In this document: piece after piece, positions 21,677 to 43,073 of the stretch | How positions within the stretch are numbered: the first letter of the stretch is position 1 | Layout of the letters: each line of letters opens with the position of its first letter | Origin: Streptomyces sp. HmicA12 | GTDB taxonomy: Bacteria; Actinomycetota; Actinomycetes; Streptomycetales; Streptomycetaceae | DNA length: 64,000 nucleotides | Direction of reading: 5' to 3' | Assembly: GCF_000373565.1 (NCBI RefSeq) | Contig: NZ_KB891851.1 | Coordinates: 62,001-126,000, forward strand | Notes under the pieces: model-generated | What the model was told of the DNA's origin: nothing | The model's input: the letters and a program-made list of their open reading frames with translations, nothing else | Database searches by the model: none | Position numbers and translations under genes: made by a program

Positions 21677-21792
21677 ATGCCCCGAACGCACGGCCCGGAC
21701 GCCGCCGACAACGGCGGAACATTAGACTCGACAGACCCGGCAAGCTCGAACAGCTCAACCAGCTACTACAGCTCTACTGCAAGGAGGCACGG

Positions 21793-23778: not shown

Positions 23779-23870
23779 TTCGCGTGAAAACCCGTGACCG
23801 GCCGGGTATTCGGTGCCTACTCGTCTCGATCATGTCGAGACCGAGGACCGAGCCGCATGGAGGTATGCCG

Positions 23871-25514: not shown

Positions 25515-27023
25515 ATGCTCACCGAGGCGTCGCCGTCGCTACCGTACGTGTCCGAACACCGCCGCGACGCCCCGCACACCAGACCTGCCACCGCCCGCCG
25601 CGGCTACTGGAGACGACTGGTCCCGCTCCTCGCCCTGCTCGCCTGCGTCACCCGCGCCCCCTCCTTCGCGCAGCCCCTGTGGAACCCCGACGAGGGCTAT
25701 CTCGCCGTCCAGGCAAGGATGTTGGCGCACGGCGGCGCCCTGTACGAGACCGTCGTCGACCGCAAACCGCCGCTCGTGCCCTGGCTGTACGAGGCCGTGT
25801 TCGCCCTCTTCGGGTCACAGTCGCTCACACCGGTCAAGGTCTGCGCCGTGGCGGCCCAGTTGGCGACGGCCGTGCTGCTCGCCTCGATCGCCCGCCGCCG
25901 CTGGGGCAACCCGGCCGGGCGCATCGCGGGCGCGCTGTACCTCCTCGTGTCCATCGGGCTCAACCCGGAGGACGCGCAGGCCGCGACCTTCGAGGTGTTC
26001 ATGCTGCCGTGGACCGCGGCGGCCGTGTGGTGCGCCGACCGGCGCCGCTGGGCCCTGTGCGGGGCCGCGGTCGCCGGAGCGTTCCTCACCAAGCAGACCG
26101 GGGCGGCCATCCTTGTCCCGGTGGCCTGGATGATGTGGCGCTGCGCGGCGCCCCGGGCGGACGTGGTGCGGTGCGCGGTGGGTGTGACGGCGCCGATCCT
26201 CGCGGCCGCCTGCGCCACCGATCCCTCCGGTTTCCTGTTCTGGACGGTGACGGGTTCGGGCGCGTACGCCTCCTTCACCGGCTCCGAACTCCACGTACTG
26301 GTACGGGGGTTGGTGAACGCCGCGATCCTCGGCGTGGCCTGCGCCGGGATCCTGCCGCCGGTCGTCCGCGTCCTGCGCATCGCCCGCACGGGCTGCGCCG
26401 ACCTGTGGCTCTGGCTGGGCTCGTCCGTCCTCGCGGTCCTGGCCGGCTTCCACTTCTTCGGCCACTACTACCTGCAACTCGTGCCCCCGCTGGCCCTGTT
26501 GGGCACCGCCGCACTGCAGATCCTGCCGCGCGAACGGGTCGCCCGCGCCCTGCTCGTCTCCGTGTGCTGCTGCGGGCTGTTCCTGGCCTGGGGCATGCTC
26601 GCGCCGCGCCCCGACCTCGTCCACGCGCAACGGGTCGCCGACGAGGTGCGGGCCCGGTCCGCCCCGCACGACCCCGTCCTGGTGTGGGGCATGCACCCGG
26701 AGACGTACTGGCTGGCCGACCGCTCACCGGCGAGCCGCTTCCTGACGGCGGGGCTGCTGACGAACTACAGCGGGGGCCGGGACGGCCCACAGGTGGGGGA
26801 GAAGTGGGCGGTGCCGGGAACGTGGCGCGCCTTCCGCACCGAGTTCGCGACGCGGCCGCCTGCGCTGGTGGTGGACGATGCGCGGGGTGCGGCTTATGGG
26901 GTGGAGCGGGTGCGGACGTTGAGGCGGATGCTCGGCCCGTACGAGGAGGTCGCGCGGGTGGACGGAGCGGTGGTGTACGCCCCGTCCGGCGGCCCTCAGG
27001 CGTCAGCCGCCCGTCGCGGGTGA
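25515..27023 (+). CDS. GT39/ArnT-like membrane glycosyltransferase
   Basis: A 502-residue polytopic protein with about ten hydrophobic helices between residues 35 and 380 and an extracytoplasmic C-terminal domain. The acidic pair in the first outer loop (LWNPDEGYLAVQARML, near residue 55) and the RKPPLVPWLYEAVF motif that follows are features of the PMT/ArnT (GT39/GT83) superfamily. These enzymes move a sugar from a polyprenyl-phosphate donor onto a lipid, protein or polymer outside the membrane. The ATG at 25515 has no clear ribosome site and may be leaderless. The tail overlaps the convergent LCP gene by 21 bases. It sits at the edge of the glycopolymer locus and may add side-chain sugars there (inference). 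Confidence 0.78.
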   Translation: MLTEASPSLPYVSEHRRDAPHTRPATARRGYWRRLVPLLALLACVTRAPSFAQPLWNPDEGYLAVQARMLAHGGALYETVVDRKPPLVPWLYEAVFALFGSQSLTPVKVCAVAAQLATAVLLASIARRRWGNPAGRIAGALYLLVSIGLNPEDAQAATFEVFMLPWTAAAVWCADRRRWALCGAAVAGAFLTKQTGAAILVPVAWMMWRCAAPRADVVRCAVGVTAPILAAACATDPSGFLFWTVTGSGAYASFTGSELHVLVRGLVNAAILGVACAGILPPVVRVLRIARTGCADLWLWLGSSVLAVLAGFHFFGHYYLQLVPPLALLGTAALQILPRERVARALLVSVCCCGLFLAWGMLAPRPDLVHAQRVADEVRARSAPHDPVLVWGMHPETYWLADRSPASRFLTAGLLTNYSGGRDGPQVGEKWAVPGTWRAFRTEFATRPPALVVDDARGAAYGVERVRTLRRMLGPYEEVARVDGAVVYAPSGGPQASAARRG

Positions 27024-28094
27024 CTTCTTCGCCGACTCGGGGATCGTGGAGTCGGTGCGGATCGCCTTCCACAGGGTGCTCGCCTGCGGTTCGGCGGCGA
27101 CGACACGGTTGGGGTCGACCTTGTCGTAGGCGACCGGCAGCATGATCGTCTCCATGGACGCGGGGTCGACACCGTTCATGCTGCGCGCGAACTTGCCGAG
27201 CGAGGTGAGCGAAGCGAGCCCGGAGTCCGTGGTCAGCGATTCCGTGAGGCTGTCGGCGACCTTGTATGTCTTGGTGGGGCTGCCCAGCAGGTCCTGCTTC
27301 TTGATCTCGCTCAGCAGGGCGATCATGAACTGCTGCTGGAGGCCGATGCGCCCGAGGTCGGACCCGTCGCCGATGCCGTGCCGGGTGCGCACGAACGCCA
27401 ACGACTGGTCGCCGTCGAGCTCGTGTGTCCCGGCGGTGAGGTCGAGGCCGCTGGACTTGTCGTGGATCGGCTGGTCGACCTTGACGGTGACACCGCCGAT
27501 CGCGTCCACCAGCCCCTTGAATCCGGCGAAGTCGATCTCCATGAAGTGGTCCATGCGCACCCCGGACATCGCCTCGACCGTCTTGACCACACAGGCCGGA
27601 CCGGCGACCGAGTACACGGAGTTGAACATGACCCGCTTCGCCGACGGCAGCGTGCCGCCGTCCTTCTTCGTGCACTCGGGCCGGGTGACCAGGGTGTCCC
27701 GGGGAATGCTGATCGCGGTGGCCCGCTTGCGGCCCTCGGGTATGTGCATCACCAGGGCGGTGTCGGAGCGGGCGCCGGAGACATTGCCGGTCTTCAGCGC
27801 GGCGTTGGCGCCGGACCGGGAGTCGGAGCCGAGGACCAGGATGTTCTGGCCGGAGGTCGGCAACTTCTCGGGGCGGTCCTTGCCGATGGCCTTGTCGAGG
27901 TCGACGCCCGTGATGTTGCCGTCGAGGCGGGAGTAGAGCCAGTAGGCGGTGCCGCCGAGCACCAGGACGAGACCCAGCAGGGAGAAGAGCACGATCCGGC
28001 CCGTGCGACGCTTCTTCTTCGGCGCTTTGCGACTGCGCTTGCCGGGAGCGGCATGTCTGGACGGTGGCACAGGGGTGTTCGGGTCGTGGCTCAC
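27003..28094 (-). CDS. LytR-CpsA-Psr (LCP) family cell-wall glycopolymer ligase
   Basis: A 363-residue protein with a basic cytoplasmic N-terminus (KRSRKAPKKKRRTGR), one membrane helix (IVLFSLLGLVLVLGGTAYWL, near residues 35-55) and an external LCP domain. Catalytic landmarks are SDTALVMHIP, SIPRDTLV near residue 165, and FVRTRHGIGDGSDLGRIGLQQQF near residue 265. LCP enzymes transfer undecaprenyl-linked polymers (wall teichoic acid, arabinogalactan) onto peptidoglycan. The GTG at 28094 follows GAGGA at good spacing; the frame upstream to 28217 is not used. It is divergent from the propeller/Stealth genes and is the natural last step for a polymer made by them. Confidence 0.9.
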   Translation of the reverse strand: MSHDPNTPVPPSRHAAPGKRSRKAPKKKRRTGRIVLFSLLGLVLVLGGTAYWLYSRLDGNITGVDLDKAIGKDRPEKLPTSGQNILVLGSDSRSGANAALKTGNVSGARSDTALVMHIPEGRKRATAISIPRDTLVTRPECTKKDGGTLPSAKRVMFNSVYSVAGPACVVKTVEAMSGVRMDHFMEIDFAGFKGLVDAIGGVTVKVDQPIHDKSSGLDLTAGTHELDGDQSLAFVRTRHGIGDGSDLGRIGLQQQFMIALLSEIKKQDLLGSPTKTYKVADSLTESLTTDSGLASLTSLGKFARSMNGVDPASMETIMLPVAYDKVDPNRVVAAEPQASTLWKAIRTDSTIPESAKKSPATGG

Positions 28095-28420
28095 GGCGGG
28101 TCCTCGCAACTCGTGCCCAGAGGGCAAGGGCAGCAGGCCGCTCCCGTGAGGGGCCGGGTCGGTGCTGCTCGGCTGACGCTTGACTGCAGAACTATAGACA
28201 TGTACTCGAATGTTCATTTGAGCGATGTGCCCGGTTGATCACGCCCCCTAGGTGACGTTCCTTTCCGGCTTTCAGGCGTCTGGAACCGTCCGCGTGGCTG
28301 TGACCTGGGGGCGGGCGGTATCCACCGGGTGGCAGGACGTGTGTTCGTACAGGCTTATGATGTGCCGGATTCTGGAGTCTTCTGTGAACATCGGGCCCGG
28401 CGAGGGAAGGGGCGGCACAC
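28095..28420. other. Divergent promoter region between the LCP and propeller genes
   Basis: About 326 bases with no gene. The centre (28185-28225) is AT-rich for this genome. On the minus strand it holds TATAGT (28196-28191) as a possible -10 for the LCP gene; on the plus strand TTGACT lies at about 28180. The ribosome site of the plus-strand gene is AGGGG, about 10 bases before 28421. No clear operator was found. Confidence 0.5.
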
Positions 28421-29548
28421 ATGCGCGGCAGAGGTGCGCAGGCGGTGGAGCGGCGGTCCCGATCCGATGTCGACGTCGAGGTGCCGCCTCGCCGTGCGGC
28501 GGCGACCGTGGCCTCGGGGGCGTGGCTGCTGCGCGGGAACGACGACCGACTCGCGGTGTACGCGCTGGTCGAGGGCGGAGTGCACCGCTGGACGGAGACC
28601 GTTGTCGGCAGCGGACGCTGGAGCGGGCCGGACTTCTTCTCCGTCGACGGGCTGACCGACCTCACCGTCGTCCAGGGCGCCAACCGCTACGTGCACTTCA
28701 TCGGCCGTAGGGAGAAGCGTCAGAGCGGGGGCGTGCCGAAGGTCGACGTGGTCTACGCCGTGCAGTACCAGTCAGGTCGGACGCTGGGGGAATGGCGTTC
28801 GCTGGGCAACCCGTTCCGCGACCAGAGGGACGCTGTGGCGCTCGGCGTGCCGACTGCGGCCGTCGACGGACAGGGCACGGTGCACATCTTCGTCTCCGGT
28901 GGTGCCGGTGGGGTCATGCTGCGCCGTGAGTCCAAGAGTGGCGCATGGGAGGCCTGGAAGGATCTCAGGGGCGGTGAGGTGGCCGGTGGTCTTGCGGCCT
29001 CCGCCACCTCTGCCGGGTTCGTCGAACTGTTGGCGCCGGGGCGCAGGTCGGTGATGCGCTGGGTGCAGATGGAGCAGGCGGGGGAGTTGCGCAGGGCGCA
29101 GGACCTCATGCCGGCCCCTGCTCCAGGATCGGCGGCGCTCCTGGAGGCCGTGCCCGGCGTCTTCACCGCGTACTGGACCGAGCAGACCGGGACCGGCGTC
29201 TACGCGCAGCGACCCGGTGAGTGGGCATTCCCCATGGGAGGGGCCCCCGGGGCGGGTCCGCACGCCATGCTCCGGGCCATTGTCGACGGCTACGACTGCA
29301 CCGTCCTGGCTCATCAGGGGCGCACCGGCACGGCCGTGTTCGGGCTGTGCGGTGCCGGGGCCGAGGCCTCCGGAATGTGGTGGACCGACACCGGGGTGAC
29401 CTGCACGGGCGCCCCGGCGCTGGCGCTGGACGGGCGGGGGCGGGTCGTGATGGCGACGGTCGCGTCGGACCGGACCGTTCTGGTGAGCCGTCAGTGTCGT
29501 GAGCCCGGACTCGTGTTGTCCGATTGGGACCGACTGCCCGGCTGCTGA
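28421..29548 (+). CDS. Lectin-like beta-propeller protein, paralogue 1
   Basis: A 375-residue protein after a charged N-terminal 30 residues. It consists of repeated blades each carrying an aromatic-rich strand: SGAWLLRGNDDRLAVYAL, GTVHIFVSGGAGGVMLRRES, GAWEAWKDLRGGEVAGGLAA and SVMRWVQ. The pattern (GxVxxFV..GG...R....GxWxxW..L) is that of sugar-binding propellers such as PLL/fucose lectins. There is no signal peptide or membrane helix, so it appears cytoplasmic. It is a paralogue of the protein at 41280-42311; both share the W-x2-W-(K/R)-DL(R/K)-G blade and a C-terminal alpha/beta ending. Position next to polymer genes suggests a glycan-binding or scaffolding role; no function is established. 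Confidence 0.75.
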   Translation: MRGRGAQAVERRSRSDVDVEVPPRRAAATVASGAWLLRGNDDRLAVYALVEGGVHRWTETVVGSGRWSGPDFFSVDGLTDLTVVQGANRYVHFIGRREKRQSGGVPKVDVVYAVQYQSGRTLGEWRSLGNPFRDQRDAVALGVPTAAVDGQGTVHIFVSGGAGGVMLRRESKSGAWEAWKDLRGGEVAGGLAASATSAGFVELLAPGRRSVMRWVQMEQAGELRRAQDLMPAPAPGSAALLEAVPGVFTAYWTEQTGTGVYAQRPGEWAFPMGGAPGAGPHAMLRAIVDGYDCTVLAHQGRTGTAVFGLCGAGAEASGMWWTDTGVTCTGAPALALDGRGRVVMATVASDRTVLVSRQCREPGLVLSDWDRLPGC

Positions 29549-29661
29549 GCCCCTATCTACCCTCTTCGATTCCGTCAAGAGCATAAAAGGTTGTACGCCC
29601 TTTTGGTGAGCGTTGTCACACGCCCAAACGTGATCAGAATCTGTCGGTGCCTGTACTTTTA

Positions 29662-29685
29662 AGAAACCTTCATGTGAAGGTTTCT
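29662..29685. promoter_or_regulatory. AT-rich 11-bp inverted repeat ahead of the Stealth gene
   Basis: AGAAACCTTCA (29662-29672) and TGAAGGTTTCT (29675-29685) pair perfectly around two bases. It lies in a 270-base gap that is much less GC-rich than the surroundings. It could be a terminator for the propeller gene or an operator for the transferase operon; the short gap and AT-rich arms fit an operator better. Confidence 0.45.
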
Positions 29686-29818
29686 GGGATTCCCGGCGTT
29701 TCGGCAATCTCAGAGCAATGCGGGTGATGCCCGATGTATGTGGTGATGGCGAGCTTCTCTGGGCCGAGGGGGCACATCGCGAGATGTGTAACTTCCCCGG
29801 CGAACAGGGCTGCTAGGT

Positions 29819-31645
29819 GTGGATGGTGGATGCCTCGTGGTTGGGTCGGACAACCCGGAAGCCGGCGCGCTGCTCTCGGTGTACCGCTCCGCGGTACCGA
29901 CCGGCGCGCGGCAGCGGATCGTTCGCGGCATGCCCGTCCCGGTCCGAAAGGCGGTCAAGTCCTCGCTCACCGCAGCCGACTCCATGCGGTCGGCCGCAGT
30001 GGTCTGGGCGATGGGCGGGAAGCGCAACGCCCCTCGGCACAGTGCCGCGTACAACAACCGTGTCGTACGGGTCGGGCGCCGTCACATGCGCGCGCTGCTC
30101 GTCGAGGGCGCGACGGACTGGGCGGCTCGCGCCCGCAACCTGAACATCATGGTCTCCGTCCTCGAGGCGGCAGGCATAGACCACTTCTGCGTACGGGGCA
30201 CCAACAGCGGACTGCCGGCCGTGGCGATACCCGCCGATGCCCGTCCGCAGGTCGAGGAGCTGCTCCAGCTGGCCTTCGCTCAGGCGCCGGGCTATGTGGG
30301 CCCCGCCGGTGGAAACGAGTCCCGCATGGAGCCCGGTGACGAGGAACGGTCGTGGCGGCAGCTGCGCAAGCACAAGGTGTTGCGCGTCGCGTGGTACGTG
30401 TGCGACCCGACCCAGCAGCTCGTCTTCGGTGCGGCCAACGGATGCGACCTGGAGGTGTGGACCGAGCGGGACGGCGAACTGAAGGCGCCCCGTCCCAACC
30501 GTGTCATCGACGCCGTCCCGCTGGATGCTCCCCGCAAGTCGGCACCACAGAGTCTGTTCAGTGCGATTCCTCCGGCGTACGAGACGGGAACCGCCCGCAC
30601 TCTGGCGGAGTTCGCGGTCCCGCTGCCGGAGGATCACCAGTTCCCGATCGATGTGATCTACACCTGGGTCGACGATTCGGACCCGGTCTGGCGGGAGTCG
30701 CGCGACCGCGTGCGCGGCTGGTTCCGTACGGACGGACTGCACGAGCAGGCGGCCAACGATTCACGGTTCACCAGCCGCGACGAGCTCCGCTACTCCCTGC
30801 GGTCGCTCCATCAGAACGCGCCCTGGGTGCGAAACATCCACCTCGTGACCGCGGGCCAGGTTCCGTCCTGGCTCAACACGCAGCACCCGAACCTGCGCGT
30901 GGTGGATCACCGGGAGATCTTCTCCGATCCCGCCGCGCTACCCACGTTCAACTCGCACGCCATCGAAAGCCAGTTGCACCATGTGCCGGGCCTCTCGGAG
31001 TGCTTCCTGTACCTGAACGACGACGTCTTCTTCGGGCGCCCGGTCACGCCCGGACACTTCTTCCACCCGAACGGCATCACGAAGTTCTTCACCTCGCCTG
31101 CGCTGATACCCGGTGGCGGGGTGTCTCCCGACGATCTCCCGGTCAACGCGGCAGGCAAGAACAGCCGTTGGCTCATTGCGCAGAAGTTCGGCACGGCCAT
31201 CTCCCAGAAGATGAAGCACACGCCGCACGCGCTGCGCAGGAGCGTGCTCCAGGAGATCGAGGGGACCTTCCCCGACGAACACACCGCGACGCAGCACTCG
31301 CGCTTCCGTTCGCCCGGGGATGTGCCGATCGCCTCGTCGCTCCACCACTACTTCGCGTACCACTCCGCCCGCGCGACCGTGGGCGAGATCCAGTACCGGT
31401 ACATCGATCTCTCGGCGGACCTGGCCGAACGGCGTCTGAACACGCTTCTCGCCAACCGGAACATGGACACCTTCTGCCTCAACGACACCGTCGAGTGCGC
31501 AGATCCTGAGGCTCAGCGAGACATGCTCGCGTGTTTCCTCAACGCCTACTTTCCGGTGGCCAGCCCCTACGAAACCGCTGGCCACGCGAACGTTCTTGAG
31601 CAACGTGCCGAGCCGGAGAAGGTCCTCGATGCCGCTGATCACTGA
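29819..31645 (+). CDS. Stealth-family sugar-phosphate transferase
   Basis: A 608-residue protein. The N-terminal 270 residues are specific to actinobacterial members. The Stealth domain follows: CR1 IDVIYTWVDDSDPVWRE near residue 278, CR2 DSRFTSRDELRYSLRSL near residue 315 with YLNDDVFFG, CR3 around HTPHALRRSVLQEIEG and CR4 NRNMDTFCLNDT near residue 545. Stealth proteins transfer hexose-1-phosphate from nucleotide sugars to make phosphodiester-linked polysaccharides such as meningococcal capsule. It starts the run of four polymer genes on one strand. GTG at 29819 is used; GTG at 29837, behind GGTGGA, is an equally good start. The polymer is unknown. Confidence 0.87.
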   Translation: MDGGCLVVGSDNPEAGALLSVYRSAVPTGARQRIVRGMPVPVRKAVKSSLTAADSMRSAAVVWAMGGKRNAPRHSAAYNNRVVRVGRRHMRALLVEGATDWAARARNLNIMVSVLEAAGIDHFCVRGTNSGLPAVAIPADARPQVEELLQLAFAQAPGYVGPAGGNESRMEPGDEERSWRQLRKHKVLRVAWYVCDPTQQLVFGAANGCDLEVWTERDGELKAPRPNRVIDAVPLDAPRKSAPQSLFSAIPPAYETGTARTLAEFAVPLPEDHQFPIDVIYTWVDDSDPVWRESRDRVRGWFRTDGLHEQAANDSRFTSRDELRYSLRSLHQNAPWVRNIHLVTAGQVPSWLNTQHPNLRVVDHREIFSDPAALPTFNSHAIESQLHHVPGLSECFLYLNDDVFFGRPVTPGHFFHPNGITKFFTSPALIPGGGVSPDDLPVNAAGKNSRWLIAQKFGTAISQKMKHTPHALRRSVLQEIEGTFPDEHTATQHSRFRSPGDVPIASSLHHYFAYHSARATVGEIQYRYIDLSADLAERRLNTLLANRNMDTFCLNDTVECADPEAQRDMLACFLNAYFPVASPYETAGHANVLEQRAEPEKVLDAADH

Positions 31646-31690
31646 GAGTCCCGTCCTTGCCGCTCCCTTTGTGATTGAGCCTCGCCGAGC

Positions 31691-34426: not shown

Positions 34427-34454
34427 AATCTGATGTGGTCTGCCAGGAGGAAAA

Positions 34455-35930
34455 ATGTCCCAAGCCAACCGTGACGTGACGGTCGTCGTGCCGTTCCGTG
34501 ACGTCCAGAACTACTTCTCCGAGTTTCTGGCGTCAGTGGCCGCTCAGACGGCTTTCGCGCGTGCGCACGTGATCCTCGTCGACAACGGCAGCAGCGACCA
34601 GTCCGTGGCCATCGCGAGCGAGTTCGCGCGTGCGCATCCCAACGTTGACCTGGTCGCTCAGCCGCAGGGCCGGGCCGGCGACGCCCGCAACATGGGCATG
34701 GACATGGCTTCGACGCCGTACATCGTCTTCTGGGACGCCGACGACATCGTCCCCGAGGGGTCCCTGGAAGTCCTTCGGAACACCATTGTCAAGACCAGGG
34801 CCACCGTGGTCGTGGGGCGCGAGAAGCACACGCCCAAGCCGGTCAAATCGCCCTGGCACAAGTACTTCGGCAAGAACGTCAAGACGGTGAACAGCGTCGT
34901 CGACATCCCGGACCTGATCCACTCGGCGTCCTGCTGGAACAAGATCTTCGACCTCGACCTGCTGCGCTCCCAAGGCATCCGGTTCGGTTCCGCCATGGCC
35001 TTCGAGGACGCGTACGTCTCGATCCCCGCGCTGCTCCTGTCCGAGCGGATCTCGCTGGTGGACGCTCCCGTCTACGAGTACCGCAGGCGGGGTGACGGCA
35101 CGTCCGTGATGGACACCATCTGGGACCTGCCGCAGAACTACGTTGACCAACTGGCGATGCTGGAGTACCTCGCCGGCATGCGCCAGAGCCTGACCCCCTA
35201 CCACCAGGAGACGCTGGAGCGATTCCTCATCCGCAGCCTGCAGGGTTTCCTGCTGAGGGCCCCGCGTGTGTTCGGCGAGGGCGACTGTCGGCAGCTGTTC
35301 GAGCGGTGCCGCGCACTCTACTGGGGGATCACCTCGGAGCAGTTCGCGCGCAGCACCAATGACACCCGGCACCGGCTGCCATACCTGGCGATGCACTACG
35401 GCGACTTTGACCTCTTCTACCGCCCGGCCGCCGTCCTCGGCTCGGTCTTCGGCCGCGAGGGCGACCTCTACGTCGACTACCCGGGTACGTCCTGGGCGCT
35501 ACCCCTCACCAAGGTCACGTCGGTCCCGGCCCGTATCGATGGAGTGTCTGCGGGCGAGGGAGGGGCCGTGGTCGTCCACGGCAGCTTCTCGGTCAACGGG
35601 CTTCCCGACGAACTGCTCGCCAAGATCGAACTGCAGGTCTGGTTCGAGCGGAGCGGCAAGACCCTGCCCGCGGTCAACCACGGTCAGGCCCATGACGGAA
35701 CAGGCCGACCGGGAGCCGCCTTCAGCGTCGCTCTCGACCCCAGGCAGTTCCAGGCCGGCTCCTTCCCGGTACGTCTGGTTCTGTGCACCCGAGGCCGGGA
35801 CGTCTCGCGCCCCTGCACGGTCTCGCCAGGCTTTGCCCAACAGCCCCCCGTCACCGGTTTCCACGGTCTCACGCGTCTCACGGCGGACGGCGGCAACGCC
35901 CACCTCGTCATCGAGTCGGCCCAGCACTGA
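34455..35930 (+). CDS. GT2 glycosyltransferase, paralogue B lacking the phosphotransferase half
   Basis: A 491-residue protein collinear with the first half of the enzymes on either side. The GT2 domain has VPFRDVQNYFSEFLASV, ILVDNGSSDQSVAIA, the metal motif WDADDIVP near residue 92 and AFEDAYVSIPALLL. The beta-rich linker domain is also kept (HGSFSVNGLPDELLAKIEL, RGRDVSRPCTVSPGF). It then ends where its neighbours begin their glycerophosphotransferase domain. A clean stop, proper start behind AGGAGG and intact motifs argue for a functional, specialised transferase and not a decaying copy. Gaps to its neighbours are 28 and 50 bases, so it belongs to the same operon. Confidence 0.85.
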   Translation: MSQANRDVTVVVPFRDVQNYFSEFLASVAAQTAFARAHVILVDNGSSDQSVAIASEFARAHPNVDLVAQPQGRAGDARNMGMDMASTPYIVFWDADDIVPEGSLEVLRNTIVKTRATVVVGREKHTPKPVKSPWHKYFGKNVKTVNSVVDIPDLIHSASCWNKIFDLDLLRSQGIRFGSAMAFEDAYVSIPALLLSERISLVDAPVYEYRRRGDGTSVMDTIWDLPQNYVDQLAMLEYLAGMRQSLTPYHQETLERFLIRSLQGFLLRAPRVFGEGDCRQLFERCRALYWGITSEQFARSTNDTRHRLPYLAMHYGDFDLFYRPAAVLGSVFGREGDLYVDYPGTSWALPLTKVTSVPARIDGVSAGEGGAVVVHGSFSVNGLPDELLAKIELQVWFERSGKTLPAVNHGQAHDGTGRPGAAFSVALDPRQFQAGSFPVRLVLCTRGRDVSRPCTVSPGFAQQPPVTGFHGLTRLTADGGNAHLVIESAQH

Positions 35931-35980
35931 TCACCATCCGCTCCAGAAATGGGGTACTCGGCAGAAAACAGGAGTCATAA

Positions 35981-38722
35981 GTGTTCGATCCCGTCTACGA
36001 CGTCGCCGTCGTCGTCCCCATCTTCAATGTGGAGAGATATCTCCAGGAGTGCCTGGACTCGCTGGCCCGTCAGACGATATTCGACCGCTGCCAGGTGATC
36101 CTGGTCGACAACGGGAGTGTCGACAGCTCGCCCGGTATCGCCACCGCATTCGCCGCTCAGTATCAGAACGTCTGGGCGTTCGTGCATCCCGAAGGCAAGG
36201 CCGGCGGCGCCAGGAACGCAGGTATGGACCTGGTGAGTGCCCGCTACATCACCTTCTGCGACTCCGACGACGTGCTGCCCGACGACGCCCTGGAAACCAT
36301 GTGGCGGACCGCGGTCAAGGAGCGCGTTCCGCTCACCATCGGGCGGATGGAGACCTTTCCGGAGGAGACCAACTGGCCCTGGCTGCGCTACTTCGGCTCC
36401 GGAGTCCAGGTACATCCCGGAATCGACAACATTCCGGAGATGATCCACGGCGGAAGTGCATGCCACAAGCTCTTCGACGTCGAGTTCATCCGGGCGAACA
36501 ACATTCGCTTCCGTGAGGGCGTGCACTTCGAGGACGCATTCTTCTCGGTCCCCGCGATGCTTCTCGCTGACCGTATCGCGATGGTGCCCAGCACCGTGTA
36601 CCGGTACCGCAAGCGCGCCGCCGAGGACTCCACGATGGACAAGCTGTGGGAGCGCAAGGCGAACTACTGGGATCACCTCCTCCTCGAGGAATACCTGGTG
36701 TCGCTGCGTCCCCGCCTCTCCGGTCACCGCCAGGAAGTACTCAACCGGTTCTTGGTGCGCAGCTATCAAGGCTTCGCTCTCCGCGCGCCCGAGGCCATGC
36801 ACGAATCGGAGCTGTTCCAGCTCTTCGAACGGGCCCGCGCCGTCTACACCCAGTTGACGCCCGACGCGATCGTGAGCTCCACCCACGACACCCGCCACCG
36901 GGTGCCGTTCCTGGCGATGTACCTCAACTGGTTCGAGTTGTTCGCGCGTCCGGAACAGGTGATCAGCGGTGTGTACGGGCGAGGAGGAGACCTCTACCTC
37001 GATCTCTCGGTGCCCAGCGCCCTGCTGTCCTTGACCAAGGTCTCCGCCACCAGCGTGCACGTGGAGCGGATACAGCCGGCACCGAACTCCGACGAGATAC
37101 TCGTCGCGGGCCGCTTCGTCCTCAACGGACTGCCGATGAAGCGGCCGATGCGCAACCCCATGCAGCTGTGGCCGGAGAAGAGCGGCCAATTGGTGCCCGC
37201 ACGGCAGGTGTGGCGCAGCGACCTCAAGGCGACCCGGGACGACCTGGAATGGGGCGGTTTCGAGGCGCTGCTCCCCGTGGAAGCGGTCAAGGACGGGGAG
37301 TTCCCGCTGAAGCTGGTCTTCTGCACCTCGGGCCGTGATGTCTCGCGGCCGTGCATGAGCACCACGGCGATGCTGCGCGGCGCCCGGGGCATGAAGGCCG
37401 CTGGCCACTGGGTGCTGCCGCTCTCCAAGGGCAAGGACCAGGTGTCGTTGGTCGTCAGGGAGGTGCGGGGCAAGGGAGGCAACAGGGACTGGGAGGAATT
37501 CCTCCAGGGCATGGACCAGGACCAGAAGAAGCGCAAGGCGCCGTTCTGGCGGGCCCGGTCCATCCGCCGGATGACCCTCAGATTCTTCCGTGGCAAGGAG
37601 ATCTGGCTGATCGGCGAACGCAAGGACACGGCGCAGGACAACAGCCTGCACCTGTTCACCTACCTGCGAAAGCACGAGCGGCGCCGCAAGGTCTACTACA
37701 TCATCGACAAGCAGAGCGCCGACCTGGCCAAGCTCAAGCGGCTCGGGAACGTGGTGGCGCACGGCTCCTGGAAGCACAAGCTCCTGCTGCTCCACGCGAG
37801 CCTGCTGGTCAACGCGTACGACATCGACTCATACATGCTTCCCGACGACTGGGACCGCACGAAGTACCTCAAGCATCTCAACTGGCGGGTGGGCGCCCGG
37901 CGGGTCTTTCTCCAGCACGGCGTGACCGATGAGGACGGCAGCAAGGCACTGCACCGCAACCGGACGGGCGTGGACCTGGTGTTCGCGACCAGTCAGCGGG
38001 AGGCCGACTACTTCTCCGAGCACATGCATTACGGAGCCCAGGCCCAGGCGCTCGGCTTCCCGCGCTTCGACGCGTTGCAGCCCGACCGCGGTGGGCGCCG
38101 CATCCTGCTGATGCCCACCTGGCGCAAGTATCTGACGATCCCCTCGTACCTGCAGGGCGACGACGCGGATCAGAACGCCGTCGAGGAGATCTTCCGGGAG
38201 TCCAGCTACCGGGACTTCTACGTGCGCCTTCTGCGGGATCCGAGGCTCATGAAGGCACTGGAGTACTACGACTACGTACTCGACTTCTTGCCGCACTACG
38301 AGATGCGCAACATGATCGGCGGAGTGGTACCGGACCACCCGCGCGTGCAGCGCCTGGACCAGACGAAGGTCAGTGTGCAGACCGCCCTGCGTCAGTGCGA
38401 CCTTTTCATCACCGACTGGTCCTCGGTCCACTTCGACATGGCTTACCTCGGCACGCCTTTGATCTACTCGCGGTTCGACCCGGACGAGTACTGGGCGAAG
38501 CATGCCCGGAAGGGGTACTTCGAGGCGGCGCACGATGGGTTCGGGCCGGTCTGCGAGACAGTCAGCGAGGTCGTCGACGAAGTGATCCGCTACCTGGCCA
38601 ACGGATGCAGGCGGGAACCGGAGTACGACCGCCGAGCACGAGCGTTCTTCGCGTTCGAGGATCGCGACAACTGTGCGCGCGCCACGGACGCGATCGCCCG
38701 GCTCGCGGCGTCGGACCGATGA
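35981..38722 (+). CDS. Bifunctional GT2 glycosyltransferase / CDP-glycerol-type phosphotransferase, paralogue C
   Basis: A 913-residue paralogue of the protein at 31691 with the same three-part layout. GT2 motifs are VPIFNVERYLQECLDSL, ILVDNGSVDSSPG and CDSDDVLPDDA near residue 92. The phosphotransferase half has FLQHGVTDEDGSKA near residue 644, GFPRFDAL, LMPTWRKYL, LPHYEMRNM and FITDWSSVHFDMAYLGTPLI near residue 810. The GTG start at 35981 is eight bases after AGGAG. It ends the run of polymer genes, seven bases from the convergent EEP gene. Two full-length copies flanking a short one suggest serial duplication, with each enzyme adding a different unit or acting on a different linkage (inference). 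Confidence 0.86.
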   Translation: MFDPVYDVAVVVPIFNVERYLQECLDSLARQTIFDRCQVILVDNGSVDSSPGIATAFAAQYQNVWAFVHPEGKAGGARNAGMDLVSARYITFCDSDDVLPDDALETMWRTAVKERVPLTIGRMETFPEETNWPWLRYFGSGVQVHPGIDNIPEMIHGGSACHKLFDVEFIRANNIRFREGVHFEDAFFSVPAMLLADRIAMVPSTVYRYRKRAAEDSTMDKLWERKANYWDHLLLEEYLVSLRPRLSGHRQEVLNRFLVRSYQGFALRAPEAMHESELFQLFERARAVYTQLTPDAIVSSTHDTRHRVPFLAMYLNWFELFARPEQVISGVYGRGGDLYLDLSVPSALLSLTKVSATSVHVERIQPAPNSDEILVAGRFVLNGLPMKRPMRNPMQLWPEKSGQLVPARQVWRSDLKATRDDLEWGGFEALLPVEAVKDGEFPLKLVFCTSGRDVSRPCMSTTAMLRGARGMKAAGHWVLPLSKGKDQVSLVVREVRGKGGNRDWEEFLQGMDQDQKKRKAPFWRARSIRRMTLRFFRGKEIWLIGERKDTAQDNSLHLFTYLRKHERRRKVYYIIDKQSADLAKLKRLGNVVAHGSWKHKLLLLHASLLVNAYDIDSYMLPDDWDRTKYLKHLNWRVGARRVFLQHGVTDEDGSKALHRNRTGVDLVFATSQREADYFSEHMHYGAQAQALGFPRFDALQPDRGGRRILLMPTWRKYLTIPSYLQGDDADQNAVEEIFRESSYRDFYVRLLRDPRLMKALEYYDYVLDFLPHYEMRNMIGGVVPDHPRVQRLDQTKVSVQTALRQCDLFITDWSSVHFDMAYLGTPLIYSRFDPDEYWAKHARKGYFEAAHDGFGPVCETVSEVVDEVIRYLANGCRREPEYDRRARAFFAFEDRDNCARATDAIARLAASDR

Positions 38723-38729
38723 CCTGTGC

Positions 38730-39662
38730 CTATCGCCCGCTGCGCAGGGAGACGGTACCGATCAGGGCATGGTGGTCGGAGCAGTAGCGCATGCCGCTGC
38801 AGGAGGTCGGCAGGGCCAGCGCGTCGGCCGAGTACGCGCCGCTGATCTGGGCGGCGCGTACGAGGAGGTGATCGAGCTTGACGCCAGAGCCGCACGGGCC
38901 GAGAGACGCGGCGGGCACTGTGAAGGTCCGCTCGCCGCGCCCCATGCAGTGCCTCGCGTCCGCATCGTCCAGCTCCCGGTGTGCGCCCCGATCGCCTTGG
39001 TCGGCAGGCGAGTTGGCGGACGGCGCGTACAACTGCTCCATGCGTTCCTGATGGGGCTGGGCATTGAAGTCGCCGGCCACCATGTAGGAGCGTCCCGCGT
39101 GGGCGAAGGCGTCCAGGTGGGTGCGCAGAGCGGTGATCTGCCGTTTGTTGTACGCACTCATGGGTGTCAGGTGGGTGGTGCAGAACGTCACCTTCGGACG
39201 TGCGGCGAGTGGCGCGCACAGGAGCACGCGGCGCTCGACAGCACCGTCGGACGGCAGGACGTACGTGGCCGCCGGGCCCAGCGGCCTCTTGCTGAACAGA
39301 GCGACTCCGTACGCCTCCGAGCCCCGGCACAGGCCCTCGCGTGGTCCGAGCGTCGGCGTGAACCGGGCGAAGTTGGTACGGTCGGCCGGCCAGCCGAGAT
39401 GGCGGAGTCGCTTCAGCACCGCCTCGTACTGGCCGTGGCAGACCTCGTTGAGCGACACCAGGTCCGCGTCGCGGTGCCGAACCGAGGCGGTGAGCGCGTC
39501 GATGAGCCCGTCGGAAACAGATCCGTGGTGCAGCGCGTTCCCGGCGATGTTCCAGTGCCACAGCCGGTATGTGGCGCTCCCCGCAGCCGCGTAGGGCGCG
39601 CTCCCCAGCACTACAGCCATGGTCAGCAGAAAAGAAAGCACGACGACCCGGCCGGTGCGCAT
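38730..39662 (-). CDS. Secreted endonuclease/exonuclease/phosphatase (EEP) family protein
   Basis: A 310-residue exported protein. Residues 1-27 are a signal peptide (MRTGRVVVLSFLLTMAVVLG, AAAG). The EEP fold follows with YRLWHWNIAGNA, DADLVSLNEVCHGQY (catalytic Glu), TTHLTPM, VAGDFNAQPHQ (catalytic Asp-x-Asn) and KLDHLLVR...CSDHHALIG (terminal Asp-His). These are the DNase I / sphingomyelinase-type residues. The family cleaves phosphodiesters in DNA, lipids or other molecules. The setting next to phosphodiester-polymer genes suggests either extracellular nuclease activity or polymer turnover; I cannot choose. The frame runs on to 40196 through another gene, but the ATG at 39662 has an AGGGG site and the signal peptide. 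Confidence 0.85.
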   Translation of the reverse strand: MRTGRVVVLSFLLTMAVVLGSAPYAAAGSATYRLWHWNIAGNALHHGSVSDGLIDALTASVRHRDADLVSLNEVCHGQYEAVLKRLRHLGWPADRTNFARFTPTLGPREGLCRGSEAYGVALFSKRPLGPAATYVLPSDGAVERRVLLCAPLAARPKVTFCTTHLTPMSAYNKRQITALRTHLDAFAHAGRSYMVAGDFNAQPHQERMEQLYAPSANSPADQGDRGAHRELDDADARHCMGRGERTFTVPAASLGPCGSGVKLDHLLVRAAQISGAYSADALALPTSCSGMRYCSDHHALIGTVSLRSGR

Positions 39663-39768
39663 ACGGTCCCCTTTTTCGACGCGGTGGTCGGGGGGAATGT
39701 ATCCGACAGGGCGTGCGACTGGTCCGACGGGCCAAGGCCGGAGGGTGACGGCCCGGGGACACGACGGC

Positions 39769-40122
39769 CTACCGCCCCGGCCACACCGTCCGCGGCCCCA
39801 CGCACCGGGCCCCCAACGCACCCACTCTTTGTCGTAGTTCACGGTCGGCGGTGACCACCACCACGGGGCGTGCGGCCTGTTCGACGAAGGCCACAATGTG
39901 GTCGTCGCCGCTCCCGGACGCCGACTCGACCCGCACACCGGGCACCGACTCGACGCCCCGTGCGGCGCCTTCGACGACCAGGACCACCGTGGTCCCGGTG
40001 CGCTCGGCGTACTCGACGAGATGGTCCCGCAGGCGCTCGGCGGCCCCGCGCCGGTCGCGCCACCAGCCGTCCGGTACCGAGCCGACGACATTGGCCCCGT
40101 CGACCAACAACAGTTCGTCCAT
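39769..40122 (-). CDS. NYN-domain (YacP-like) putative RNase
   Basis: A 117-residue protein of the PIN-like NYN fold. It starts with LLLVDGANVVGSVPDGWW (catalytic Asp and Asn) and has GTTVVLVVEGAARG, then ASGSGDDHIVAFV and VVVTADRELRQRVGALGA, where the acidic residues complete the metal site. YacP/Rae1-like relatives cleave mRNA on the ribosome. It is a single gene between the secreted EEP gene and galU, and there is no toxin-antitoxin partner beside it. Confidence 0.8.
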   Translation of the reverse strand: MDELLLVDGANVVGSVPDGWWRDRRGAAERLRDHLVEYAERTGTTVVLVVEGAARGVESVPGVRVESASGSGDDHIVAFVEQAARPVVVVTADRELRQRVGALGARCVGPRTVWPGR

Positions 40123-40316
40123 GGGGACAGGATCGCAAAAGGTTGCACGCGGAGCCGTTGCTCTTTGACATAGATCGAGGGCCGGTTACGAATCACTTCC
40201 GCCGGGCGTCCGCGATGTCCAAAAGGTCGCGAAGCGGTGATCGCGTGCGTGGTTAGTGTGAAGAAGTCCGACGATCTTGAGAAGGCGCCGCGTCACCGCC
40301 GCGCCAGGAGACAACC

Positions 40317-41237
40317 GTGCCAGTCAAGAACCCCCGCGCCCGCAAGGCCGTCATCCCCGCCGCCGGCCTCGGGACCCGCTTTCTCCCCGCCACCAAGGCG
40401 ACCCCCAAGGAGATGCTCCCGGTCGTGGACCGCCCGGCCATCCAGTACGTGGTGGAGGAGGCCGTGCGCAGCGGGCTCGACGACGTGCTCATGGTCACCG
40501 GCCGCAACAAGCGGGCGCTGGAGGACCACTTCGACCGTGCCTACGAGCTGGAGCACCTGCTGGAGCTGAAGGGGGACGCCGCCAGGCTCGCTCATGTCCG
40601 GGAGTCGAGCGAGCTGGCCGACGTCCACTACGTCCGGCAGGGCGATCCGCTCGGCCTCGGTCACGCCGTGCTGTCCGCGGAACCGCACGTCGGCGAGGCT
40701 CCGTTCGCGGTGCTGCTCGGGGACGACCTGATCGACGAGCGCGACCCGCTGCTCGCGCGGATGCTGGAGGTCCAGGAACAGCGCGGGGGCAGCGTCGTCG
40801 CCCTCATGGAGGTGGCGGACGACCGTACGCACCTGTACGGGTGCGCCGCGGTGGGCCCGGCGGACGGCGGCGCCGACGACGTGCTGGCCGTGACCGACCT
40901 CGTCGAGAAGCCCGAGCCGGGCACCGCGCCCAGCAACCTCGCGGTGATCGGCCGCTACGTCCTCGCCCCGCAGATCTTCGGGATTCTGCGCGGCACCCCG
41001 CCGGGCCGCGGCGGGGAGATCCAGTTGACGGACGCCCTGCGGCAGTTGGCCCTCGACCCGGGGCTGGGCGGCCCGGTCCACGCCGTGGTCTTCCGGGGGC
41101 GCCGCTACGACACGGGGGACCGCGGCGACTATCTGCGCGCCGTCGTCCGACTGGCGTGCGAGCGCGAGGATCTCGGTCCGGAGTTCCGGACCTGGCTCGG
41201 CGAGTTCGTCCAGGAGCAGGGAATTCTGTCCGCCTGA
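40317..41237 (+). CDS. galU: UTP-glucose-1-phosphate uridylyltransferase
   Basis: A 306-residue nucleotidyltransferase making UDP-glucose. The N-terminal signature VIPAAGLGTRFLPATKATPKEML is exactly that of GalU, followed by VVDRPAIQYVVEEA, FAVLLGDDLIDE near residue 140 (metal Asp), DLVEKPEPGTAPSNLAVIGRYVL near residue 200 and GGEIQLTDAL. The GTG start has CAGGAGA upstream. UDP-glucose would feed the glycosyltransferases of the neighbouring polymer locus and general wall metabolism. It is followed by the second propeller protein after 42 bases. Confidence 0.93.
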   Translation: MPVKNPRARKAVIPAAGLGTRFLPATKATPKEMLPVVDRPAIQYVVEEAVRSGLDDVLMVTGRNKRALEDHFDRAYELEHLLELKGDAARLAHVRESSELADVHYVRQGDPLGLGHAVLSAEPHVGEAPFAVLLGDDLIDERDPLLARMLEVQEQRGGSVVALMEVADDRTHLYGCAAVGPADGGADDVLAVTDLVEKPEPGTAPSNLAVIGRYVLAPQIFGILRGTPPGRGGEIQLTDALRQLALDPGLGGPVHAVVFRGRRYDTGDRGDYLRAVVRLACEREDLGPEFRTWLGEFVQEQGILSA

Positions 41238-41279
41238 GGGGGACATGGCCGCCCGCACGCGGCCGCATAAGCTGAAGGT

Positions 41280-42311
41280 GTGAATGGCACCTGGCTGATC
41301 CGCGGCCGCGACGGCAGGCTCTGCGCCTACGCGTACGCCCCCGGGGGCGACGCCGTCGTCTGCCGTGCGGAGTCCGATCCCGGCGGCCCCTGGACACCCC
41401 CGCGCACGGTCGGCGGCGACCAGCGCGTGCACCCCGCCCTGGCCCTGGCGCGCAGCGCGAACGGCTACGCGCACCTGGTCTCCTGGCGCCCCACCGTCCC
41501 CGGCGAATCGGGCCTGATCCACACCACCCACTTCCAGTCGCATCTCGCGGCGCTCGACTGGGCCCCCATCGGCCACCCCAACAAGAAGGGCGACCGCACC
41601 GGACCGCCCGCCGTCGCCGTCGACGCGCAGGGCCGCGCCCACGTCTTCGTCCGCAACAACGGCGGCGGGATCAGCATGCGCGCGCAGGCCGAGAAGGGCG
41701 GCTGGGACCCGTGGCGCGACCTCAAGGGCACCGACGTACGTGGTGAACTCGCCGCGGTGGCGAGGGAGTCGGGCCTGATCGAGCTGTACGCGGCGACCGG
41801 CGACGGCATCCTGCGCTGGCGCCAGGAGAAGCCGGGCGGCACCCCGGTGCGGGACGAGGAGATACAGACGGCGGCACCCCGGCCCGGTACCCTGCGAGCC
41901 CTTGCCACGTCAGCGGACCACACCACGCTCTTCTACGTGGACGAGGGCGGCGCCCTGTGCGCGTGGCGCGGCGACGCCGACCCGGCACGGGTCCTGGACG
42001 CGGCGGGCGACGGCCCGGTCGCGGTGATCCGCTGCCGCCTCGACGACGTCGACTGCACACTCCTCGCCCAGCGCTCCCGCACCGGCCGCATCGCCTTCGC
42101 CGCCTACCCGACCGAGCTGGAGAGCGCGGGCGCCTGGTGGGCGGAGTCGGGCGATCCGCTGCCGGCCGACGCCCGGATCGCCCTGACCGAGGACGAGGAG
42201 GGGCGGGTGGTCGCCGCCGCCTTGCTGCCCGGTGGTCCGGATCGCCTGCTGCTCACGCGCCGTAAGGCCGAAACAGGGCTTGCGCTGGAGGCGTGGCGGC
42301 ACGTGTTCTAG
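41280..42311 (+). CDS. Lectin-like beta-propeller protein, paralogue 2
   Basis: A 343-residue paralogue of the 28421-29548 product without its charged N-terminal extension. Blades are visible as GTWLIRGRDGRLCAYAYA, GRAHVFVRNNGGGISMRAQAE, GGWDPWRDLKGTDVRGELAA, GILRWRQEK and GALCAWRG. No signal peptide or membrane helix is present. The GTG start at 41280 lacks a ribosome site and has TAAGCT just upstream, so it may be leaderless. The location right after galU, at the far end of the polymer genes, mirrors paralogue 1 at the near end. A role in binding the cytoplasmic glycan intermediate is possible but unproven. Confidence 0.75.
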   Translation: MNGTWLIRGRDGRLCAYAYAPGGDAVVCRAESDPGGPWTPPRTVGGDQRVHPALALARSANGYAHLVSWRPTVPGESGLIHTTHFQSHLAALDWAPIGHPNKKGDRTGPPAVAVDAQGRAHVFVRNNGGGISMRAQAEKGGWDPWRDLKGTDVRGELAAVARESGLIELYAATGDGILRWRQEKPGGTPVRDEEIQTAAPRPGTLRALATSADHTTLFYVDEGGALCAWRGDADPARVLDAAGDGPVAVIRCRLDDVDCTLLAQRSRTGRIAFAAYPTELESAGAWWAESGDPLPADARIALTEDEEGRVVAAALLPGGPDRLLLTRRKAETGLALEAWRHVF

Positions 42312-42341
42312 GCCCCACGGCCGATCAAGGGGTGGGGAAGA

Positions 42342-43073
42342 GTGAACAGAACTGCTGCGCGGCGAAGAGTCGCCGCTGTCGCGGTGGGCGTGGCGACGGT
42401 GCTGCTGACCGGCGCGTGCGGGGGCGGGGAGGAGACGTCCGGGGCGCGGTCCCCGGAGGCGTCGCCCACCGTACGGGCCGAGGACAGGGTGGAAGGGCCG
42501 GTGCTGACCGGGCGCGAGTTGCAGAGCGCGGTCCTCTCCGGCACGAAGATCGGCGCGGGCACGGAGGGCGTGGGCGACGGCACCGCGTCGGTCGTGCCGC
42601 GTGACGCCGCCGAACCGGCGACCTGCGGACCGGTGCTCGGCGCGCTCCAGGGCGCGAGCGGCCACCAACCCCTGCATGGTGTGACCCGCATGGTGGTGCG
42701 CGACGGCGCCACCGCGTACGTGTATCTCTCGGCCTACCGTGCCGAGGACGCCGGGCAGGTCATGGCCGAACTGCGGAGCTCGCTCACGAGCTGCCGCGCG
42801 TTCCGGGTCCCGCGGAACGGCACGGCCTGGTCCGGGATCCGGCGAACGGAGCAACTCGGCGAGGGCGACCAGGAGTTGGCCTTCCGGGGCGTCGTGCGGA
42901 TGGGGCCGTCCGAGGACGACCCGAAGGTTCCCGAGGACGTGCACGTCGTCCGGGTGGGCACGACGATCGCGACGTTCACGACGCAGAACATCACCGGGAC
43001 GTCGACGCCGGCCCGCAGCCCGAAGTCCCTGGTGCACGAGCAGGTGACGGCGCTGGAGAAGGCCGCCGGCTGA
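42342..43073 (+). CDS. Putative lipoprotein of unknown function
   Basis: A 243-residue protein with a lipoprotein signal (RRRVAAVAVGVATVLLTGACG, acylated Cys near residue 26), a Ser/Glu-rich linker and a globular domain with two cysteines (PATCGPVL, SSLTSCRAFR) that may form a disulfide. The layout resembles sensor-like or PknH-type extracellular domains, but I do not recognise a family. It begins 30 bases after propeller paralogue 2 with a GTG behind GGGGAAG, so the two probably share a transcript. A terminator follows. Confidence 0.72.
   Translation: MNRTAARRRVAAVAVGVATVLLTGACGGGEETSGARSPEASPTVRAEDRVEGPVLTGRELQSAVLSGTKIGAGTEGVGDGTASVVPRDAAEPATCGPVLGALQGASGHQPLHGVTRMVVRDGATAYVYLSAYRAEDAGQVMAELRSSLTSCRAFRVPRNGTAWSGIRRTEQLGEGDQELAFRGVVRMGPSEDDPKVPEDVHVVRVGTTIATFTTQNITGTSTPARSPKSLVHEQVTALEKAAG

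Follow-up and report, generated by a model that had tools for sequence, protein, structure and literature searches.

Which surface polymer is specified by the genes next to the LCP gene of Streptomyces sp. HmicA12, and do these genes form a single pathway? The window analyzed here, a stretch of 64,000 nucleotides, was described in a first-pass annotation as carrying, at positions 25515-43073, an unusual enzyme set for a candidate phosphodiester glycopolymer of the cell surface, suggested to mix or alternate hexose phosphate and polyol phosphate and to be anchored to peptidoglycan by the LCP enzyme. As the full explanation we favor, with a probability of about 0.6, that the block at 28421-38722 is an interchangeable cassette, inserted in a slot between the LCP and fadB genes, for an oligoglycosyl-phosphate wall polymer ligated by LCP. 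The swap slot is the larger finding and goes beyond the earlier description.

Gene content and the conserved unit

All the genes named before are present at their positions. The left flank consists of dxs (21643-23712, + strand; DXP_synthase_N and other Pfam domains) and a commonly found amino-acid permease gene (23784-25442, +; AA_permease_2, 5.3e-52), followed by a GT39/PMT_2-type membrane glycosyltransferase gene (25515-27023, +; PMT_2 by Pfam, PF13231 at 1.9e-12) and the LCP ligase gene (27003-28217, -; LytR_cpsA_psr, PF03816 at 3.8e-47), which every slot contains by definition. The LCP protein has its LCP domain, one hydrophobic segment near residue 71 as membrane anchor and, by eye, the Arg/Asp residues that we take to be the active-site motif of LCP enzymes. 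The gene set, with its neighboring LCP ligase, fits a surface polymer of the phosphodiester type, as proposed. The LCP gene, which points away from the block, is not its exclusive partner; further LCP genes are present in this genome.

Downstream of the block are genes for an EEP-fold hydrolase (38730-39662, -; Exo_endo_phos PF03372, 2.5e-18), predicted to be secreted from a start that looks signal-peptide-like by eye, galU (40317-41237, +; TIGR01099, 328.8 bits against a cut-off of 326.8), propeller 2 (41280-42311, +; 32% identical to propeller 1) and a lipoprotein (42342-43073, +) with a lipobox-like N-terminus by eye and no Pfam family at E<=0.001. The EEP gene is present as claimed, but its coding sequence of 310 aa does not fill the whole reading frame 38730-40196 (-), and a small NYN_YacP-like gene (39769-40122, -; PF05991, 2.5e-7) had been overlooked. 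The right flank is fadB, for an enoyl-CoA hydratase/3-hydroxyacyl-CoA dehydrogenase (43147-45276, -; PF02737 at 2.8e-58, PF00378). The block carries no exporter gene, and no Wzx/Wzy-type gene was noticed there.

The conserved unit, lying beside the LCP gene, is propeller 1 (28421-29548, +), Stealth (29819-31645, +), GT2-TagF 1 (31691-34426, +), a GT2-only paralogue without TagF domain (34455-35930, +) and GT2-TagF 2 (35981-38722, +). Among 13 further Streptomyces and Kitasatospora loci, chosen by GT2-TagF similarity and hereafter called the named loci, this order was kept in 12, one of them fragmented, with protein identities of 74-89% in the 11 unbroken loci, indicating an association of the genes beyond chance. 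The proposed co-conservation of Stealth with the three GT2 paralogues was therefore borne out, together with propeller 1. In 12 of the 13, the block has an LCP gene next to it.

The remaining genes are distributed differently over the named loci and the 71 slots found by LCP orthologues (>=62% identity, counted by eye) in 199 sampled genomes of the genus. The GT39 gene is present in two named loci and five slots including this one, one match being partial; galU in no named locus and four slots including this one; the lipoprotein gene in no named locus and, among the slots, in this genome only. The EEP gene was detected in one named locus and two slots (tblastn, E<=1e-12), while a looser gene cluster (cluster 10), built from separate gene calls, covers ten slots, seven of them T1. 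Propeller 2 has a copy at 60-63% in seven named loci, and its orthologues are mostly located upstream of LCP in other genomes. The NYN_YacP-like gene is a frequent member (12/13 named loci, 44/71 slots). Where the core is intact, GT39, EEP, galU, lipoprotein and propeller 2 are thus lacking or occur only sporadically, and on this distribution we reject the whole 17-kb stretch as a single pathway.

Transferases of the cassette and their donors

The Stealth protein contains CR1, CR2, CR3 and CR4, all above the Pfam cut-offs, and its best solved relative is CpsY (8j2n, 4.5e-71), followed by GlcNAc-1-phosphotransferase alpha/beta (GNPTAB). It is predicted from these matches to transfer sugar 1-phosphate. 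CR1-CR4 and the sequence match are common to all three; unlike CpsY and GNPTAB, the protein here stands beside GT2-TagF enzymes and has 274 residues ahead of CR1.

The two GT2-TagF proteins (51% identity) carry PF00535 (Glycos_transf_2) and PF04464 (Glyphos_transf), arranged in GT2-TagF 1 as a GT-A glycosyltransferase, a beta linker and a divergent TagF-like domain; the lone GT2 was assigned by PF00535 and alignment. The PF04464 scores are 112.1 and 117.5 bits (cut-off, 22.1), while six other members in this genome score 319-440 bits. The catalytic histidines of TagF are H444 and H584 (PMC5974469). In GT2-TagF 1, the first catalytic-type histidine (QHG) aligns with the canonical WHG/QHG by MAFFT but not in the phmmer alignment, and the second aligns with SeTagF in the phmmer alignment but is left unaligned by MAFFT. 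Of the canonical active-site motifs, the TagF-like domains have lost TPLK and carry PRFD in place of PRND; because of these two differences, none of the described donor classes fits fully. A model of GT2-TagF 1 (mean pLDDT, 73.4; pTM, 0.55) has a low-confidence TagF half, and no TagF entry appeared among the best 50 rows of its fold search. The GT2 half resembles TarS, TarP and RmlT, enzymes that decorate ribitol-phosphate polymers. Fusion of GT2 to TagF, which had been taken as part of the unusual character of the locus, is not in itself unusual: TagF of S. epidermidis has a GT2-like N-terminus, and of six further TagF-family matches on contig C6, three or more lie in reading frames also matching the GT2 proteins of the window.

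The equation of TagF-type enzymes with polyol phosphate could not be upheld. According to the excerpted text of PMC5974469, capsule polymerases of the GT-A/TagF kind transfer hexose phosphate. With the group 2 enzymes of this kind, Cps1B, Cps12B and CslB, the proteins here share a GT-A domain ahead of a TagF-like one and the presence of both catalytic-type histidines. They differ in that TPLK and PRND, motifs of the canonical TagF, are changed, and in the setting of two paralogues plus Stealth plus a lone GT2 in a Gram-positive wall context. Homology searches of this genome recognized no enzyme for CDP-glycerol and no extra one for CDP-ribitol, so that, as judged by homology, the donor supply for teichoic acid synthesis was not found. 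No TagD-like candidate was detected except for a 16.6-bit match inside GT2-TagF 2; two CTP_transf_like matches are NadD and CoaD, an extra IspD match is GlmU, and the single remaining IspD match was taken as the isoprenoid enzyme. Among the genomes with a slot, TagD matches at E<=1e-5 occur in 46 of the 56 listed (of 71), none above the cut-off, and in these 56 genomes TagD presence did not sort with cassette type.

A mixed or alternating polymer, in which Stealth would add hexose phosphate and the TagF-like domains glycerol or ribitol phosphate, is therefore rather unlikely, albeit the strongest of the alternatives. PF04464 is named for CDP-glycerol transferases, a relative (G161) has a TagD-like match of 60.8 bits, below the cut-off, and the likeness of the GT2 half to TarS, TarP and RmlT leaves a polyol link some probability. 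Against this stand the lack in this genome of a TagD-like candidate and of a second IspD-type enzyme, the altered TPLK and PRND motifs, and the R-type slots described below, which carry their own IspD and SDR gene (seen in a representative; cluster in 8/8) while the cassette here does not.

Alternative cassettes between LCP and fadB

We distinguished eight cassette types in the slot, of which the block is one. As annotated through gene-cluster representatives, the 71 slots comprise S2 (13), T2 (12), T1 (9), R (8), S3 (7), K (4), S2b (2) and the type described here (2), besides 10 empty and 4 unassigned slots. Elsewhere, the slot holds two or three Stealth genes, genes of the canonical-TagF, CDP-ribitol or sialic/Kdn type, or no cassette. 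Of the flanking genes, fadB lies within reach in 67 slots, the permease gene cluster was found in 54 by gene calls, and dxs in 45, a count limited by the length of the fetched regions.

On the fadB tree, the cassette types are distributed nearly as chance would place them, but they track the adjacent propeller. The fadB tree of 63 rows requires 41 type changes against a shuffled mean of 43.5 (168 of 1000 shuffles as low), whereas the LCP tree retains a clear signal (34 changes; mean, 42.6; 0/1000). For the same 40 rows, 12 changes were counted on the propeller tree and 21 each on the fadB and LCP trees (shuffled means, 25.7-25.8), the latter two retaining part of the signal (as few changes in 3 and 6 of 1000 shuffles, respectively). 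Alternative cassettes thus lie between fixed flanks and are largely uncoupled from flank phylogeny, LCP being partly coupled. These counts, on which we rely, come from the systematic sample alone; FastTree was used without its support values, with matches longer than 650 (fadB), 290 (LCP) and 300 residues (propeller, within 2.6 kb downstream of LCP), and the unassigned slots G164, G023, G178 and G091 were excluded from label counts. With the named loci added, except for L146, which is G161 again, the fadB DNA tree gave 46 changes in 75 rows, where shuffling gave 52.3 on average and never fewer than 46, and 51 rows gave 24 (fadB), 23 (LCP) and 12 (propeller).

Of the rows compared, G059 has the fadB closest to that of the window (94.1% DNA); it is 92.9% identical over the fadB-thiolase stretch but carries another cassette type, with only 64-72% patches. 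In L142 and L150, LCP is at 61% and 66% and the block proteins are at 80-89%. The peptide-pattern scan, which tried exact patterns first, was non-exhaustive.

The propellers gave no Pfam match at E<=0.001. Propeller 1, as modeled with AF2 (pLDDT, 84.7; pTM, 0.84), has the fold of PLL lectins: Foldseek retrieved Photorhabdus PLL/PHL lectins including PLL2 (best E, 1.4e-14) with TM of 0.71-0.82 over about 360 columns, and profiles matched PLL4 and PLL3 at about 1e-15. Carbohydrate binding is predicted. Every one of the 57 typed slots with a cassette has a propeller in the fetched stretch, compared with 5 of the 10 empty slots (Fisher p, 2.6e-5). Propeller 1 has no obvious signal peptide, and a hydrophobic N-terminus is missing in 98 of 100 slot propellers by a plain hydropathy window, a crude test that misses many secreted proteins, as it flagged only 6 of 10 EEP and 5 of 9 NAGPA-lipoprotein gene calls. 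Secreted lectins are thus thought unlikely, and the PLL-type propeller is probably cytosolic.

The existence of alternative cassettes also bears on whether the block makes two polymers, one by Stealth, perhaps with the lone GT2, and the other by the two GT2-TagF proteins, co-located for shared regulation only. Stealth cassettes and GT2-TagF cassettes are indeed alternatives in the slot elsewhere, but the hybrid block is kept in 12/13 loci with Stealth and GT2-TagF 1 adjacent or barely overlapping, and three Micromonospora loci have a run of Stealth, GT2-TagF and Stealth (one locus Pfam-checked), making this division still less probable than a mixed polymer. The Micromonospora loci gave no fadB, LCP or propeller matches and hence are outside the trees. 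Protein modification or another non-wall system, which the absence of an exporter from the block and the nearby GT39-type enzyme might suggest, is highly improbable, as the LCP gene, unlike the GT39 gene, adjoins the block in nearly all named loci.

Proposed product and related systems

For the favored oligoglycosyl-phosphate polymer, whose structure, donors and export we infer, the three cytosolic GT-A domains would add sugars and the three phosphotransfer domains (Stealth, TagF-like 1 and TagF-like 2) would form sugar-phosphodiester bonds. A transporter whose gene lies outside the block would export the polymer, and an LCP enzyme would link it to peptidoglycan, while the propeller may bind the polymer of its own cassette or the assembly complex. 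Cassette replacement by recombination would alter the surface polymer, like serotype switching in capsule loci. In streptococcal capsule (cps) serotype loci, swappable central genes lie between conserved flanks with an LCP enzyme at the locus, as in the slot; the slot differs in its probable wall polymers, the cognate PLL-type propeller and the lack of a noticed Wzx/Wzy-type gene in the block.

More tentatively, and with considerable doubt, the slot may be a widespread serotype-like locus where wall-polymer cassettes of different chemistry (sugar-phosphate, teichoic, ribitol and sialic/Kdn) interchange, each with a cytosolic PLL-type lectin that reads the cassette's polymer and serves, for instance, to gauge its length or to check its assembly. 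The hybrid cassette, with three GT-A and three phosphotransfer domains, would then make a repeating unit containing as many as three phosphodiesters, and umbrella toxins and phages could have in the slot another hypervariable receptor locus.

Chemical descriptions of Streptomyces wall polymers go back a long time, while, to our knowledge, few of the polymers are tied to genes. If the interpretation is true, a single slot accounts for part of this diversity and the polymer class becomes predictable from the genome; cytosolic polymer synthases would have, in the co-traveling propeller, a partner of a new kind. No description of the slot was found among the matches listed in titles and abstract starts of open-licence literature on the genes SCO6020-SCO6023, SCO2589 and SCO2592, on Streptomyces Stealth and serotype loci, and on wall glycopolymers including teichulosonic and glycosyl 1-phosphate ones, and for phage receptors the term 'Streptomyces phage' was in none of the matches listed.

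The utr/TUA loci, receptors of umbrella toxins in Streptomyces, are likewise hypervariable surface-glycopolymer genes (PMC13274773, in excerpt). Their enzymes differ from those of the cassette (aminotransferase, epimerases, TarS/TarM-like). Beta-propeller lectins bind such polymers there, while propeller binding here is only predicted, and the UmbA propellers, unlike those of the slot, are parts of released toxin particles. The toxins act on species without recognizable TUA genes, a point left open in that excerpt; if the above is true, the slot offers candidate receptors in such species.

S. coelicolor has a poly(diglycosyl 1-phosphate) attached by the LCP enzyme PdtA/SCO2578 (PMC7831098, PMC11481543), a sugar-phosphate-sugar wall polymer with LCP attachment as predicted here; the excerpts of both reports name no synthase genes. 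Unlike the LCP gene of the window, the PdtA gene adjoins a nicotinate-nucleotide adenylyltransferase gene, and in this genome a weakly matching LCP gene lies beside nadD on another contig.

The five-gene block and its surroundings

The first-pass annotation had described one candidate surface-polymer pathway of 17 kb (25515-43073). All of the genes named therein were found in the window, including that for the secreted EEP hydrolase, for which the coding sequence is 38730-39662 instead of the whole open reading frame. A small NYN_YacP gene (39769-40122, minus strand) had been overlooked.

Using GT2-TagF1 as the query, a pattern-led scan covering one genome from each of 84,980 species (exact peptide patterns first, not exhaustive) detected 16 loci, 13 in Streptomyces/Kitasatospora (L136-L146, L150 and L151) and three in Micromonospora (L147-L149). 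The gene order propeller 1, Stealth, GT2-TagF1, GT2 and GT2-TagF2 (28421-38722 in the window), with the LCP gene adjoining, was observed in 12 of the 13 Streptomyces/Kitasatospora loci, including L151, in which several block genes are fragmented. S. tendae, S. violaceorubidus and S. flaveolus are among the carriers. The exception was L143, where no match to LCP, propeller or Stealth was detected upstream of a truncated GT2-TagF1. The fadB gene followed downstream in 12 of the 13 loci; for L146 it lies outside the fetched DNA, yet it was found in the same genome (G161). The accessory genes were sporadic or absent, GT39 being present in 2/13 loci, EEP in 1/13, and galU and the lipoprotein gene in none (0/13 each). 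Thus, the enzyme combination was conserved, but the 17-kb gene list was not, and the unit is the five-gene block. The NYN gene was present in 12/13 loci and a copy of propeller 2 (60-63% identity) in 7/13. The Micromonospora loci carry a short run of Stealth, GT2-TagF (51-52% identity) and Stealth.

The genes from Stealth to GT2-TagF2 are separated by gaps of 45, 28 and 50 bases, a spacing consistent with an operon; 270 bases lie between the end of propeller 1 and Stealth.

In L143 (8055-12664, Kitasatospora aureofaciens NRRL B-2183), the 3' part of the cassette is linked to genes without slot matches, reflecting either a rearrangement or an assembly error.

Cassette types between LCP and fadB

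An LCP orthologue (at least 62% identity) was present in 71 of the 199 genomes of the genus sample, as counted by eye from the table, and all 71 neighbourhoods were included in the survey of the slot between LCP and fadB. SCO6020, a listed LCP gene of S. coelicolor, is probably the orthologue of the window LCP gene. The fadB gene was within reach in 67 of the 71 slots, and three of the remaining four end at contig ends. Stealth matches (E<=0.001) were detected in 79/199 genomes and orthologues of at least 62% in 15/199, while GT2-TagF matches (E<=1e-60) were detected in 16/199, exceeding 50% only in the window genome and G161, both of the same genus.

With gene families assigned from one representative per gene cluster, the slots were classified into Stealth pairs (S2, 13 slots; S2b, 2), Stealth triples plus a GT4 gene (S3, 7), GT2-canonical TagF (T1, 9), GT2-GT2-divergent TagF plus a CDP-alcohol phosphatidyltransferase (T2, 12), an IspD+SDR fusion accompanied by a weak TagF-like protein (R, 8), NeuB, cytidylyltransferase and polysialyltransferase (K, 4), the present hybrid type (2), empty slots (10, three holding a propeller there) and unassigned slots (4). 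The IspD+SDR fusion of type R would supply CDP-ribitol, and K-type slots, in which the NeuB, cytidylyltransferase-HAD and polysialyltransferase genes lie between LCP and fadB (L082, L109, L128 and L129), possibly direct Kdn/teichulosonic-type polymers. A NAGPA phosphodiester-glycosidase gene (L102:13152-14423) recurs in 9/12 T2 cassettes, and its product is a possible polymer-cleaving enzyme. Between both Stealth genes of 10/13 S2 cassettes lies a gene for a 318-aa protein without Pfam match (L054:18119-19075). The NYN_YacP-like gene is found in 44/71 slots, and elsewhere often upstream of LCP.

Gene calls gave 100 slot propellers in 63/71 genomes. By tblastn, a propeller was detected in the fetched stretch of all 57 typed cassette-bearing slots, in contrast to 5 of the 10 empty slots. 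The fold of propeller 1 is that of PLL/PHL lectins. A hydrophobic N-terminus was lacking in 98/100 slot propellers by a crude hydropathy test, which also misses many secreted proteins. The slot propellers are taken to be cytosolic, at the site of polymer synthesis, as putative lectins.

Exchange of cassettes between lineages

Changes of cassette type were counted on marker trees for the systematic sample only, against 1000 shuffles. For 63 rows, the fadB tree gave 41 changes (shuffled mean 43.5; 168/1000 shuffles as low) and the LCP tree 34 (mean 42.6; 0/1000). For the 40 rows with all markers, fadB and LCP each gave 21 changes and the adjacent propeller 12 (shuffled means 25.7-25.8), with 3, 6 and 0 of 1000 shuffles as low, respectively. 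These counts indicate that cassettes pass between lineages together with the propeller, fadB and LCP retaining a weak to moderate signal.

The closest fadB among the compared rows, that of G059 (94.1% DNA identity), accompanies a T2 cassette. Between G059 and the window, GT39, LCP, propeller 2, fadB-thiolase and the following gene are 79-93% identical and the NYN stretch 76%, whereas the cassette part shows only patches of 64-72%. The LCP gene shows 61% identity in L142 and 66% in L150, while the block proteins of these loci reach 80-89%.

Enzymes and the predicted polymer

The Stealth protein contains all four conserved regions, its best solved relatives being CpsY and GlcNAc-1-phosphotransferase. 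In both TagF-like domains, the catalytic-type histidines are retained, but two of the canonical motifs have been lost. Copies of GT2-TagF1, like those of GT2-TagF2, share 79-88% identity among themselves, compared with about 51-53% across the two paralogues. No exporter or flippase was seen within the block.

No CDP-glycerol enzyme was recognized in the window genome, where NadD and CoaD account for the two CTP_transf_like proteins and GlmU for one of the two IspD matches. GT-A/TagF-like polymerases reportedly transfer hexose phosphate to form poly(oligosaccharide phosphate) (PMC5974469). A sugar-phosphate polymer is therefore favoured as the predicted product, related in kind to the poly(diglycosyl 1-phosphate) of S. 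coelicolor (PMC7831098 and PMC11481543). Since the GT2 half is similar to TarS, TarP and RmlT, there may also be a polyol link. Contig C6 of the same genome carries six higher-scoring TagF-family genes within about 43 kb (35587-78576; L004-L009 and L013-L015), and despite these, no TagD-like or second IspD-type enzyme was found in this genome.

The separate parts (Stealth, TagF-like and LCP) and the principle of swap loci are already known; among the literature matches listed, none described the slot, the range of its cassettes, the hybrid type or the propeller that travels along. According to PMC13274773, hypervariable TUA (utr) loci are read by beta-propeller toxin lectins, and further surface carbohydrates are suggested to be recognized besides TUA, which makes the LCP-fadB slot a candidate source of such a carbohydrate.
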